Assembly: GCA_016179875.1 (NCBI GenBank)
Contig: JACPCH010000209.1
Span: 1-32,414, forward strand
Length of the DNA stretch: 32,414 nucleotides
Direction: 5' to 3'
Origin: Candidatus Rokuibacteriota bacterium
GTDB lineage: Bacteria > Methylomirabilota > Methylomirabilia > Rokubacteriales > CSP1-6
Shown: in pieces, positions 5,061-9,626 of the stretch
How the letters are laid out: each line of letters opens with the position of its first letter
Numbering within the stretch: position 1 is the stretch's first letter
Translations under genes and position numbers: made by a program
The notes under the pieces: generated by a model
Databases searched by the model: none
The model's input: only the letters and a program-made list of their open reading frames with translations
What the model was told of the DNA's origin: nothing

Positions 5061-5714
5061 TCAGACCAGCGGCCAGGGGTAGCGGTGGCCGCCCGCCTCC
5101 GCCGGGAACTCGCCGGCCTTGACCACGGCGCGCGCCCGCGCCAGCAGCGCCTTCGGCTCCCCGGGCGCCAGCAGCGCCGCGAGCGGCTCGGGCGGGCCCG
5201 CCTTCACGAGCCGCCGGAGATCGTCGAGCAGCGCCGGCGGGATCGCCGCGCCGCCGAACTCCCAGATCACGGTCCGGAGCTTGGGCTCCACGTGGAAGCA
5301 GAGGCCGTTGTCGATCGCCCAGATCGCGCCGGCGGCGTCGAGCAGGCAGTGGCCGGCCTTGCGGTCGGCGTTGTTGGCGACGAGGTCGAAGACGCAGATC
5401 CGCTGGAGCTGCGCGTGGTGCGCGGGTTCCTCGAGGAGCGAGAAGTAGTGCCGCTCGAAGTCGGCCTCGACGAAGAGCTGGAGCGCGCCCGCGCCGTAGG
5501 GGCCCTCGCGCGCGACGGTCGGCGGCACGCAGCCCCAGCCGAGCGCCTCCGACAGGAGGTACGCGGCCAGCTCGCGCTTCCAGAGCCCCGGCGGGAAGTC
5601 CCAGAGCGGGCGCTCGCCGCGGGCCGGCTTGTAGATCGCGAGCGCCGTCGTGGCGCCGTGCTCGAGCTCCACCAGCAGCGTCACGTTGCTGCTCCCCGGC
5701 ATCCGGCCCCTCAC
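5061..5714 (-). CDS. SCO1664-family protein (PI3/4-kinase/HipA-like fold), trio gene 3
   Basis: Matches the TIGR03843/SCO1664 family, which is distantly related to phosphatidylinositol 3/4-kinases and HipA. Its phosphoryl acceptor is unknown. Numbered from the GTG at 5714: ATP-lysine candidate in AIYKP (K29), WKRELAAY (about 45-52), the catalytic-loop-like NNADRKAGH (114-122, D117) and a metal-binding IDNGLCF (134-140, D135). GTG 5714 is the only usual start codon, but family-like sequence (EALELLARGAIRV) continues upstream. It reaches an ACG at 5760-5762 with an SD-like GGGGGAG 7 nt before it, inside the end of the DUF3090 gene, so the true protein is probably 233 rather than 217 residues. 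This is the last gene of the trio operon. Family confident, reaction unknown. Confidence 0.85.
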   Translation of the reverse strand: MRGRMPGSSNVTLLVELEHGATTALAIYKPARGERPLWDFPPGLWKRELAAYLLSEALGWGCVPPTVAREGPYGAGALQLFVEADFERHYFSLLEEPAHHAQLQRICVFDLVANNADRKAGHCLLDAAGAIWAIDNGLCFHVEPKLRTVIWEFGGAAIPPALLDDLRRLVKAGPPEPLAALLAPGEPKALLARARAVVKAGEFPAEAGGHRYPWPLV

Positions 5715-5748
5715 GCGGATCGCGCCGCGCGCGAGGAGCTCGAGCGCC

Positions 5749-6270
5749 TCAGCGGACGACGTGGCCGTTCTCCCCCGGGCACACGTGGCCGCCGGGGTCC
5801 TTGGCGCGCCCGCACGTCCGGCACACCGGCCGCCCGGCCTTCATCAGGCTCTCCGCGCGCTCGACGAACGCCACCGCCTGCGCGCGCGTGATCCGGACGC
5901 GCGCCGTCGCCGGCTCCGGCTCCGCCGGCGCCGCCGCGCCCTCCTCGGCCTCCTCGCGGAACTCGCGCAGCTCGACGACGATGCGGTCGCGCGCCTCGTC
6001 CCAGCCGACGCCGATCGCGCCGACGGCCCACGCGGCGTCGAGGGGCTCGAGCAGCGCCGTCTCCGCCGGCGGCGCCTCGGTGGTCTTCGGCAGCCGCGCC
6101 AGCAACGCCTGGAGGTAGGTGGCGAGGCCGCGCACCATTTCCTTCTCGCACTTCAGCGTGACGAGCCGGGGCTGCTCGCGCGCCTGGAAGTAAAACACGC
6201 GCTCGCCCGGCGGGCCGACGGCGCCCGCGGTGAAGTGGTCCGGCGCCTCCAGCTCGAACGACGGGCTCAT
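5749..6270 (-). CDS. DUF3090 family protein, trio gene 2
   Basis: A 173-residue protein of the DUF3090/TIGR03847 family. Hallmarks are the N-terminal PDHFTAGAVGPPGERVFY-type sheet segment (about 10-27), FQAREQPR, and KCEKEMVRGLATYLQ (about 40-54). The middle is acidic (EEAEEGAAAPAEPEP). The C-terminus has a compact Cys/His cluster, CRTCG...HVCPGENGH (last 25 residues), which looks like a zinc ribbon. In Actinobacteria this family almost always sits between a histidine phosphatase and a SCO1664-type kinase-like protein, exactly as here. The ATG overlaps the phosphatase stop by ATGA (6267-6270), and the end overlaps the probable start of the kinase-like gene. The function is not known. An adaptor or substrate-carrier role between kinase and phosphatase is inference. 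Confidence 0.88.
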   Translation of the reverse strand: MSPSFELEAPDHFTAGAVGPPGERVFYFQAREQPRLVTLKCEKEMVRGLATYLQALLARLPKTTEAPPAETALLEPLDAAWAVGAIGVGWDEARDRIVVELREFREEAEEGAAAPAEPEPATARVRITRAQAVAFVERAESLMKAGRPVCRTCGRAKDPGGHVCPGENGHVVR

Positions 6271-6896
6271 CGGCGGATCAGCGCGGTGAGGTCGCCGTCC
6301 ACGGAGTTGACGGTGAGCACGATCGGCCCCTCGGCGCGGTAGACGATGGCGCTGGCCGAGGCGGGCGCGATCAGGATGCGCTGGAAGAGGTCGAGCGCCG
6401 TGCCGAGGGCGTGGGCGACGGCCGCCTTGATCGGGTCGGCGTGCGAGACGGCGACCAGCGTCGCGCCCGGGTGGCGCGCGACGAGCCGCGCGAGCGCGCC
6501 GGTGACGCGCGTCTGCATGGCCGGAAACGACTCGCCGCCGGGGAATCCGAAGCCGCTCGGATGGCGCTGGATCGCGGCCCACTCGGGCTTCCGCCGCGCC
6601 CGCCAGAGCGGCAGGCCCGTCCACGCGCCGATGTCCACTTCGGCGAGGTCACGCTCGATCCGGAGGCCCACGCCGAGCGCGCGGGCGATGGGCGCCGCCG
6701 TCTCGCGCGCGCGCTCGAGCGGCGAGGCGTACACGGCGGCCACGCGCGGCAGCGCCGCGATCCGCCGCGCCATGGCCTCGGCCTGCCGCCGCCCGTCGTC
6801 CGAGAGGTGCAGGCCCGGCGCGCGGCCGGGCAGCACCTTGCCCGTCGTCGGGGTGAGCCCGTGGCGCACGAGAAGGACGAGGGTGGATTTCGGCAT
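6267..6896 (-). CDS. Histidine phosphatase (MSMEG_4193-type, phosphoglycerate-mutase superfamily), trio gene 1
   Basis: A 209-residue protein with the phosphohistidine motif LVRHG (R11-H12-G13), HLSDDGRRQA, the catalytic acid region SPLERARETA, and a second active-site histidine in AVSHADPIKAAVAHALG, followed by LDLFQRI. That last combination is typical of the TIGR03848 (MSMEG_4193) subfamily rather than cobalamin or glycolytic phosphatases. It should hydrolyse a phosphomonoester. The substrate is unknown but is plausibly made by the kinase-like third gene. The reading frame stays open to 7511, but the ATG at 6894-6896 fits the family N-terminus. It starts the trio operon, divergent from the DinB gene with a 48-bp shared promoter region containing ATACACT/AGTGTAT. 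Confidence 0.88.
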   Translation of the reverse strand: MPKSTLVLLVRHGLTPTTGKVLPGRAPGLHLSDDGRRQAEAMARRIAALPRVAAVYASPLERARETAAPIARALGVGLRIERDLAEVDIGAWTGLPLWRARRKPEWAAIQRHPSGFGFPGGESFPAMQTRVTGALARLVARHPGATLVAVSHADPIKAAVAHALGTALDLFQRILIAPASASAIVYRAEGPIVLTVNSVDGDLTALIRR

Positions 6897-6944: not shown

Positions 6945-7481
6945 ATGCTGACCGCCGTCGAGTTCGTCCACGGAGGACTGAAGCACCTGCACGCGGCACT
7001 CGACAAGACGCTCGCCGAGCTGACGCCGGAGCAGCTCCACACGGTGCCCGCCGGGCATCCGAAGGCCAACACGATCGCGTGGAACCTCTGGCACGTGGCA
7101 CGCACCGAGGACAACGTCGTGCGCTTCGTGCTCCAGAACCGCCGGCCGACGGTGTGGCAGGAGGGCGGCTACGCCGAGACGCTCGGGCTGCCGCCGGTGG
7201 CCCAGGGCACGGGCATGCCGACGGCCGAGGCGCAGGCCCTGCGCCTCAAGGACGTCCCGCTCTTCCGCGAGTACGCGCAGAAGGTGTGGGCCAGCACCGA
7301 CGACTTCCTGGCGACGACCGACCCATCCGCCCTCGAGACGAAGGTGACCGTCAAGTTCGTCGGCGAGCTGCCCGCGGTCCAGGCCCTCGGCCAGATCTGC
7401 CTGACCCACGCGATGGCCCACGCGGGCGAGATCGACCTGGCGCGCACGCTCCTCGGCCTGCCCACGGTGCGCGGCGTTTGA
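6945..7481 (+). CDS. DinB family protein (metal-dependent, YfiT/DinB four-helix bundle)
   Basis: A 178-residue DinB-superfamily protein. These are four-helix bundles that bind a divalent metal through three histidines and often act as thiol-dependent transferases (mycothiol, bacillithiol, glutathione). Visible histidines are in WNLWHVARTEDNVVR (His about 46-50) and the C-terminal HAMAHAGEIDLAR pair (HxxxHxGEI, about 156-164). N-terminal FVHGGLKHLHAALD supplies the first helix. A strong Shine-Dalgarno AAGGAGGA (6931-6938) precedes the ATG by 6 nt. It is divergent from the trio operon. In Actinobacteria that trio lies near mycothiol genes, so a thiol-transferase neighbour is suggestive but unproven. 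Confidence 0.85.
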   Translation: MLTAVEFVHGGLKHLHAALDKTLAELTPEQLHTVPAGHPKANTIAWNLWHVARTEDNVVRFVLQNRRPTVWQEGGYAETLGLPPVAQGTGMPTAEAQALRLKDVPLFREYAQKVWASTDDFLATTDPSALETKVTVKFVGELPAVQALGQICLTHAMAHAGEIDLARTLLGLPTVRGV

Positions 7482-7538: not shown

Positions 7539-9626
7539 TCACGCCTCGACGAAGCCCCGGCCCGCCGTCGCCAGGCGGTCGAGCAGCGGGGCCGGCGTCC
7601 ACAGGTCGTCGCCGCTCGCGCGCCGGAGCTCCAGCATCCGGTCGCGGATCGTCCTGAGGCCGACCCGGTCGGCCCAGAACATCGGGCCGCCGCGGTAGAC
7701 CGGCCAGCCGTAGCCGTAGACCCAGATCACGTCGATGTCGCTGGCGCGGATCGCGATCTTCTCCTCGAGGATCTTCGCGCCCTCGTTGACCATCGGGTAC
7801 AGCAGGCGCTGGAGGATCTCCTCGTCCGGGACGTGCCGGCGCGTGATGCCCTGCGCCGTGGCCGCGTCGACGATGATCTTCTCGACCTCCGGGTCGGGGA
7901 TCGGCGTGCGGTCGCCCTTCTCGTAACGGTAGTAGCCGCCCCCGGTCTTCTGGCCGAAGCGCCCGAGCTCGCAGATGCGGTCGGCCACCGCGGACTTCAG
8001 GCCCTTGCCCTTCCGGATGCGCCAGCCCACGTCGAGGCCGGCCAGGTCGCCCATCGCGAACGGCCCCATCGGAAAGCCGAAGTCCACGAGCACCTTGTCC
8101 ACCTGGTGAGGCGCCGCGCCTTCCAGGATCAGCTTCTCCGCCTCGCGCCCGCGCAGGTGGAGCATGCGGTTGCCGACGAAGCCGTCGCAGACGCCGACGC
8201 ACACCGGCACCTTGGCGATCCGGCGGCCGACCGCCATCGCCGTCGCCACCGTCGTCTTCGACGACTTCGCCCCGCGCACGACCTCGAGGAGGCGCATGAC
8301 GTTGGCGGGGCTGAAGAAGTGCATGCCGACGACGCTCTCCGGCCGCTTCGTCGCCGAGGCGATCTCGTTGACGTCCAGCGTGGACGTGTTCGTGGCCAGC
8401 ACCGCGTCGGCCTTGCAGATCGCGTCGATCTTCGCGAAGACGTCCTTCTTGATCGGCATCTCCTCGAAGACGGCCTCGACCACGATGTCGGCGTCGGCGA
8501 CGGCGTTGAAGTCGGTCGTGCCGGTGATGAGCCCCATGCGCGTCTCGACGTCCCGCGGCGTGAGCCGCCCCTTGGCGGCCGTCGCCTCGTAGTTCTTCCG
8601 CACCACGCCGAGGCCGCGATCGAGCGCCTCGCGGGCGACCTCCACCACGGTGACCGGGATGCCGGCGTTGGCGAAGTTCATGGCGATGCCGCCGCCCATC
8701 GTCCCGGCGCCGAGCACCGCCGCCTTCCTGATCTCCTTCGCCGGCGTGTCGGCCGGCACGTCGGGGATCTTGGCCGCCTCGCGCTCGGCGAAGAAGAAAT
8801 AGCGCTGGGCCTTGGACTCGGGCGAGGCCATCAGCTCCATGAAGAGCTCGCGCTCGCGCTTGAGGCCCTCGGCGAACGGCAGGCTCACCGCCGCCTCCAC
8901 CGCCTTGACGCAGCTCTCCGGCGCCCGGAAGCCGCGCGTCTGCCGCGCCACCGACCGGCGGAACTCGACGAAGACCTCGGGCTTGCCGCGGACGGCGGCC
9001 AGCTTGTCGTGCAGGTCTCGGATCTTCCTGAGCGGCCGGCGCTCGGCGAGCGCGCGCTCGGCGAACGCCACGCCGGCCGCCGTGAGGTCGCCCTCCACGA
9101 TCTCGTCGATCAATCCGTGCTGGAGGGCGTCGGCGGCCCCGATCGGATCGCCGCTCACGATCATCTGGAGCGCCTTCTCGACGCCCACGACCCGGGGCAG
9201 CCGCTGGGTGCCGCCGGCGCCGGGCAGGAGCCCCAGCTTGACCTCCGGGAGCCCGAAGCGCGCCGCCTTCGCCCCGATCCGGTAATGGCAGGCGAGCGTC
9301 ACCTCGAGGCCCCCGCCGAGCGCCGTGCCGTGGACGGCGGCGACGACCGGCTTCGGGCAGCCCTCGATCTGCTCGAGGACCTCGTGGAGCCCCGGCGCCT
9401 TCGGCGGCTTGCCGAACTCGGTGATGTCGGCCCCCGCGATGAACGTGCGCCCGGCACAGACGATGACGACGGCGCCCACGCCGGCGTCGGTGACGGCCTG
9501 CGCGAGCCCGTCGCGCAGGCCCTGGCGCACGTGCTGGCTCAGCGCGTTGACGGGCGGGTTGGTGACGGTCAGGACGGCGACGCGGCCGCGGCGGTCGAGC
9601 TGGACGGACTGGGTGATGGTTGTCAT
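7539..9626 (-). CDS. fadJ: Bifunctional enoyl-CoA hydratase / 3-hydroxyacyl-CoA dehydrogenase (FadJ/FadB alpha type)
   Basis: A complete 695-residue multifunctional beta-oxidation enzyme. It hydrates 2-enoyl-CoA and oxidises the L-3-hydroxyacyl-CoA with NAD+. The N-terminal crotonase domain (1-190) shows the oxyanion-loop GRTFIAGADITEF (about 58-70), ALGGGLEV, and the catalytic glutamate stretch LPEVKLGLLPGAGGTQRLPR (about 124-143). The dehydrogenase half starts at about 297 with the Rossmann motif VLGAGTMGGGIA, has the catalytic-histidine segment VVGMHFFSP and VCDGFVGNRM, and ends with two C-terminal domains (GDLAGLDVG; YGYGWPVYRGGPM). The start ATG at 9626 is followed by the expected MTTITQSVQL. 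A -10-like TAGGAT lies 9 nt before it. It stands alone, with the thiolase partner not in this window. Confidence 0.93.
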   Translation of the reverse strand: MTTITQSVQLDRRGRVAVLTVTNPPVNALSQHVRQGLRDGLAQAVTDAGVGAVVIVCAGRTFIAGADITEFGKPPKAPGLHEVLEQIEGCPKPVVAAVHGTALGGGLEVTLACHYRIGAKAARFGLPEVKLGLLPGAGGTQRLPRVVGVEKALQMIVSGDPIGAADALQHGLIDEIVEGDLTAAGVAFAERALAERRPLRKIRDLHDKLAAVRGKPEVFVEFRRSVARQTRGFRAPESCVKAVEAAVSLPFAEGLKRERELFMELMASPESKAQRYFFFAEREAAKIPDVPADTPAKEIRKAAVLGAGTMGGGIAMNFANAGIPVTVVEVAREALDRGLGVVRKNYEATAAKGRLTPRDVETRMGLITGTTDFNAVADADIVVEAVFEEMPIKKDVFAKIDAICKADAVLATNTSTLDVNEIASATKRPESVVGMHFFSPANVMRLLEVVRGAKSSKTTVATAMAVGRRIAKVPVCVGVCDGFVGNRMLHLRGREAEKLILEGAAPHQVDKVLVDFGFPMGPFAMGDLAGLDVGWRIRKGKGLKSAVADRICELGRFGQKTGGGYYRYEKGDRTPIPDPEVEKIIVDAATAQGITRRHVPDEEILQRLLYPMVNEGAKILEEKIAIRASDIDVIWVYGYGWPVYRGGPMFWADRVGLRTIRDRMLELRRASGDDLWTPAPLLDRLATAGRGFVEA

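Follow-up and report, generated by a model that had tools for sequence, protein, structure and literature searches.

An uncharacterised phosphatase–DUF3090–kinase gene trio, established in Rokubacteria, occurring without MshC, and with a separable core

A histidine phosphatase, a DUF3090 protein, and a kinase-like protein form an already-known, uncharacterised gene unit that is best known from Actinobacteria, and its presence on a Rokubacterial contig raises the questions of whether it belongs there and of what the three proteins might do together. The window analyzed here—the whole of contig JACPCH010000209.1, 32,414 nucleotides long, from a 3.33-Mb, 77% complete genome of Candidatus Rokuibacteriota (GCA_016179875.1)—carries the trio on the minus strand at positions 5061–6896, in the order phosphatase, DUF3090, kinase, with all three open reading frames present. 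The features are listed below.

6945–7481, plus strand: DinB_2 protein, encoded divergently to the phosphatase gene (profile match)
6267–6896, minus strand: histidine phosphatase, branch 1, MSMEG_4193-like (TIGR03848, PF00300)
6858–6866, minus strand: RHG motif of the phosphatase, R11-H12-G13 (translation)
5749–6270, minus strand: DUF3090 protein, 173 aa (PF11290, TIGR03847, AlphaFold2 model)
5779–5823, minus strand: putative zinc site of DUF3090, C150-x2-C153 ... H162-x-C164 (conservation)
5061–5768, minus strand: SCO1664-family kinase-like protein, with the ACG at 5766–5768 taken as its first codon (TIGR03843, fold model, start-codon comparison)
5310–5630, minus strand: kinase core, with Lys42 at 5628–5630, Asp130 at 5364–5366, and Asp148 at 5310–5312 (P0003 numbering)

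An earlier note on this DNA had described a complete, overlapping trio with intact phosphatase residues R11-H12-G13, and the family matches, the gene overlaps, and the translation bear this out. The kinase matches TIGR03843 (SCO1664 family) with 255.7 bits against a cut-off of 172.4, over profile positions 1–253 of 253, and the DUF3090 protein scores 164.3 bits with TIGR03847 (cut-off 117.25) and 143.3 bits with PF11290 (cut-off 27). TIGR03848 is the top-scoring model for the phosphatase, covering 2–203 of 204 positions with 202.8 bits, one bit under the cut-off of 203.85; with 162.1 bits for His_Phos_1 (PF00300) and the RHG motif, the protein belongs to branch 1 of the superfamily. All three families are matched over their full length, and 4 bases at the phosphatase stop also belong to the DUF3090 gene. 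The arrangement is not due to chance, since it recurs: the three genes occur together in all 30 Rokubacterial loci first fetched, and the phosphatase–DUF3090–kinase order on one strand is found in 73 of 82 further loci among the matches listed, which span three phyla.

Within the phylum, profile searches of 95 genomes found DUF3090 in 44, namely 43 of the 57 genomes of the family to which the window belongs, plus one from a neighboring family of the same order, with none in the remaining families. The kinase count is the same; an apparent kinase without DUF3090 in one genome (G057) lies at a contig edge and was left out of the counts. Thus, the claim that the trio stands outside its usual lineage holds as far as it lies outside Actinobacteria, the genome being that of Candidatus Rokuibacteriota, but not in the sense of being unusual there; nor does the objection apply that the contig itself might be Actinobacterial. 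After Rokubacteria, the closest relatives among the best 80 matches listed come from Acidimicrobiia and other Actinomycetota, at no more than about 60–62% identity, followed by Chloroflexota. In a concatenated tree, the Rokubacteria form a single clade (support 100) and the Chloroflexota another (98). A quick tree had nested Rokubacteria within Actinomycetota, as would be expected of a transfer from within Actinobacteria, but a constrained tree keeping Actinomycetota together was better (p-AU 0.90), and that origin was rejected. Nothing in these data points to a recent transfer, although an old one is possible. The trio is long established in Rokubacteria, with relatives in Actinomycetota and Chloroflexota. 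Three loci from records titled Bifidobacterium breve (L055, L066, and L069) carry a trio of the Acidimicrobiia type, and as two of them, L055 and L066, cluster with Actinomycetota/Ilumatobacteraceae rows in the tree, the titles look wrong.

The kinase residues that the earlier note had numbered K29, D117, and D135, counting from the GTG at 5714, are indeed intact, and correspond to K42, D130, and D148 in P0003, which begins 13 residues before that GTG; together with E61, they are invariant in 20 Rokubacterial and two Actinobacterial sequences. An AlphaFold2 model (pLDDT 82), of low confidence in residues 129–133 (the catalytic loop region), residues 153–161, and the conserved tail, gave PI4K-II beta as the top match in a fold search (E 8e-6, probability 1.00), followed by FAM20C and CtkA, with HipA lower. 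The match to Pfam PI3_PI4_kinase (24.2 bits) lies under the cut-off of 27.1, and a sequence search of the PDB found no significant relative. Thus, the model supports an atypical kinase fold while indicating no particular substrate. What is shared with type II PI4K, FAM20, and HipA-type kinases is the kinase fold with its Lys, Glu, and two catalytic Asp residues, but the window kinase is smaller and only about 15–20% identical to them. We know of no kinase of the SCO1664 family with an established activity. The Actinobacterial SCO1664/DUF3090/MSMEG_4193 trio shares the three families, the gene order, and the strand; the window differs in its shorter kinase, which falls about 25 residues short of the Actinobacterial ones compared, and in the lack of a canonical MshC in the genome and of an mshC neighbor.

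The start of the kinase requires separate comment. In many Rokubacteria, the start codon of the gene lies within DUF3090, in a different frame, and is formed from Asn168 and Gly169 of DUF3090, so that the Asn168 codon sets the start—AAT followed by G giving ATG, and AAC followed by G giving ACG. This frame is used in 32 of 44 distinct loci, 13 with ATG and 19 with ACG. Asn168 is encoded by AAT in 13 of the 32, compared with 6% of Asn codons elsewhere in both genes (p 2e-8), and this excess supports ATG as the true kinase start in those 13 loci. In the window, the ACG at 5766–5768 (minus strand) is homologous to the ATG kinase start of the sister species. Twelve loci have this ACG and lack any ATG, GTG, or TTG ahead of the conserved kinase N-terminus (the window, L007, L012, L023, L025, L027, L126, L128, L130, L132, L135, and L137); for two of the twelve, the ATG at codon -23 is the sole candidate start. 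Variation in the N-terminal stretch is greatest at the third codon position, as expected of translated sequence, although the stretch is short. The first canonical start in the window is the GTG at 5714, and initiation there is doubtful because the protein would then lack a conserved helix along with part of its first strand. It is possible that ACG initiates the kinase in the 12 loci, or that an inner GTG or ATG does so with loss of the first helix; among the papers listed for ACG initiation, none was directly relevant.

For DUF3090, the proposed zinc ribbon proved to have a real basis in a CxxC...HxC (CCHC) site that shows 89–98% conservation across 105 sequences of three phyla and is a putative zinc site. 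The AlphaFold2 model (pLDDT 88) places this site after four strands and a helix followed by three strands and a helix, and a weak alignment of the two halves against each other (hhalign E 9e-4, probability 23%) gives a hint of a strand–helix duplication. The top PDB fold matches of the model are PUR-alpha repeats (E 3e-3 to 1.5e-2, TM 0.27–0.44, rmsd 13–16), nucleic-acid-binding proteins with which DUF3090 would share the duplicated strands-then-helix layout but from which it differs by the added putative zinc site. Sequence profiles give no support to homology with PUR: a comparison with one bacterial PUR sequence, checked against PDB entry 3nm7, yielded an hhalign E of 0.35 at low power; and no PUR family was found among the Pfam matches. 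A PDB sequence search with DUF3090 returned no significant relative, and a viral structure library held no match at E 0.001 or better. The PUR likeness is a weak, model-based lead and not a classification. It is improbable, in our estimate, that DUF3090 is a PUR- or whirly-like binder of single-stranded nucleic acid with a zinc site, tying a PI4K-II-like kinase and a phosphatase to RNA or DNA; were it so, a nucleic-acid-linked kinase–phosphatase switch would be common to Rokubacteria, Actinobacteria, and Chloroflexota.

The composition of the locus in other genomes bears on what DUF3090 does. Phosphatase and kinase genes are adjacent in Citricoccus, Brachybacterium, Kocuria, and Nigerium (L082, L088, L089, and L093), four Actinobacterial genomes with no DUF3090 match, and Corynebacterium glutamicum, included as a control genome, likewise has the kinase family and no DUF3090 match. 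Since genomes bearing the pair exist without DUF3090, the latter is not an obligatory substrate, contrary to one of the two roles first suggested for it; the other, that of an adaptor, is possible, as is that of a regulator. The kinase–phosphatase pair thus looks like the core of the unit, with DUF3090 as an accessory. The pair is itself not always together, since in two loci (L073 and L102) no phosphatase gene adjoins those for the kinase and DUF3090.

No neighbors conserved across phyla were found. By eye, etfBA- and diacylglycerol-kinase-like genes were named near the trio in many Acidimicrobiia, and the large protein encoded upstream of the trio in the window (7539–9626, minus strand) was likewise recognized as resembling a fusion of enoyl-CoA hydratase and 3-hydroxyacyl-CoA dehydrogenase. 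Two candidate links were rejected on distribution: Pup, the prokaryotic ubiquitin-like protein of the Pup-proteasome system, has matches in 83 of the 95 phylum genomes, with or without the trio, and inositol-1-phosphate synthase is found in 78 of the 95, including trio-less members of the window's family.

A role in a low-molecular-weight thiol system of the mycothiol type was suggested by the proximity of the trio to mshC in some Actinobacteria (PMC4255298), as also seen in the linkage of mshC to the trio in Nonomuraea (L031) and Tsukamurella (L032), and by the DinB-type protein adjoining the trio in the window. However, MshC scores over the cut-off in none of the 95 phylum genomes—the window's own being 77% complete and all its relatives agreeing—and in only four of 27 genomes of other phyla carrying the trio or its kinase; in the 80 collection loci (flanks of up to 6 kb), no mshC match was found except for a gene of cysS length in L102. 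The DinB_2 protein reaches 66.5 of 170 bits with the mycothiol transferase model, far under the cut-off, and a DinB neighbor is present in just one of 29 other loci (flanks of about 1.5 kb); in L035, a DinB-like gene is found some 3.6 kb away from the phosphatase. Neither the mycothiol context raised in the earlier note nor a conserved DinB neighbor is supported. The thiol-system role is thus largely refuted for Rokubacteria, and we regard it as very improbable. Separately, an MshC-like gene of about 385–430 aa occurs away from the trio in Acidimicrobiia and some Chloroflexota (G095, G097, G102, G103, G109, and G112–G117), with an open frame that is longer, about 590–600, in two genomes; these genes score 364–420 bits, under the MshC cut-off and over the genomes' own ordinary cysS matches.

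The preferred reading, to which a rough probability of 0.6 is given, is that of a native and conserved operon in which a kinase and a phosphatase act in opposition on a common target and DUF3090 serves as a regulator or an adaptor. The kinase, of an atypical PI4K-II/FAM20/HipA type, would be active and phosphorylate the target with ATP; the CobC-like histidine phosphatase would take the phosphate off that target; and DUF3090, an accessory protein with a putative zinc site, probably guides or regulates the pair as an adaptor, scaffold, or sensor. That the two enzymes share a target we infer from gene neighborhood alone. The substrate of the kinase may instead be a lipid or a small molecule (a compound with inositol or a sugar in it, for instance), with the phosphatase being a metabolite phosphatase and the whole a metabolic side branch as opposed to a signaling switch. 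This has in its favor that lipid kinases (PI4K-II) stand alongside protein kinases among the top fold matches found, and that the next-best families of the phosphatase, such as CobC and PspA, are metabolite phosphatases; however, the substrates of FAM20C and HipA, which share the fold to the same degree, are proteins, and in the window's family the presence of inositol-1-phosphate synthase does not follow that of the trio. In Mycobacterium tuberculosis, the trio presumably corresponds to Rv2133c–Rv2135c, with Rv2135c taken to be the orthologous phosphatase. Rv2135c has acid phosphatase but no mutase activity and performs poorly on the small phosphates tested, with a Km near 10 mM (PMC3866925), and because of this Km those compounds are probably not its natural substrates. 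Overall, the small-molecule role is the less likely of the two but a serious alternative, and an opposing kinase–phosphatase pair with DUF3090 as its probable regulator or adaptor is preferred.

What is new here is that the trio is established in Rokubacteria, occurs without MshC, and has a separable core. The trio is an uncharacterised operon of wide distribution, with the M. tuberculosis locus among its relatives; its Rokubacterial residence, the absence of mycothiol genes, and the separable core narrow the search for its function, and tractable hosts that have the kinase family and lack DUF3090, such as C. glutamicum, are indicated.
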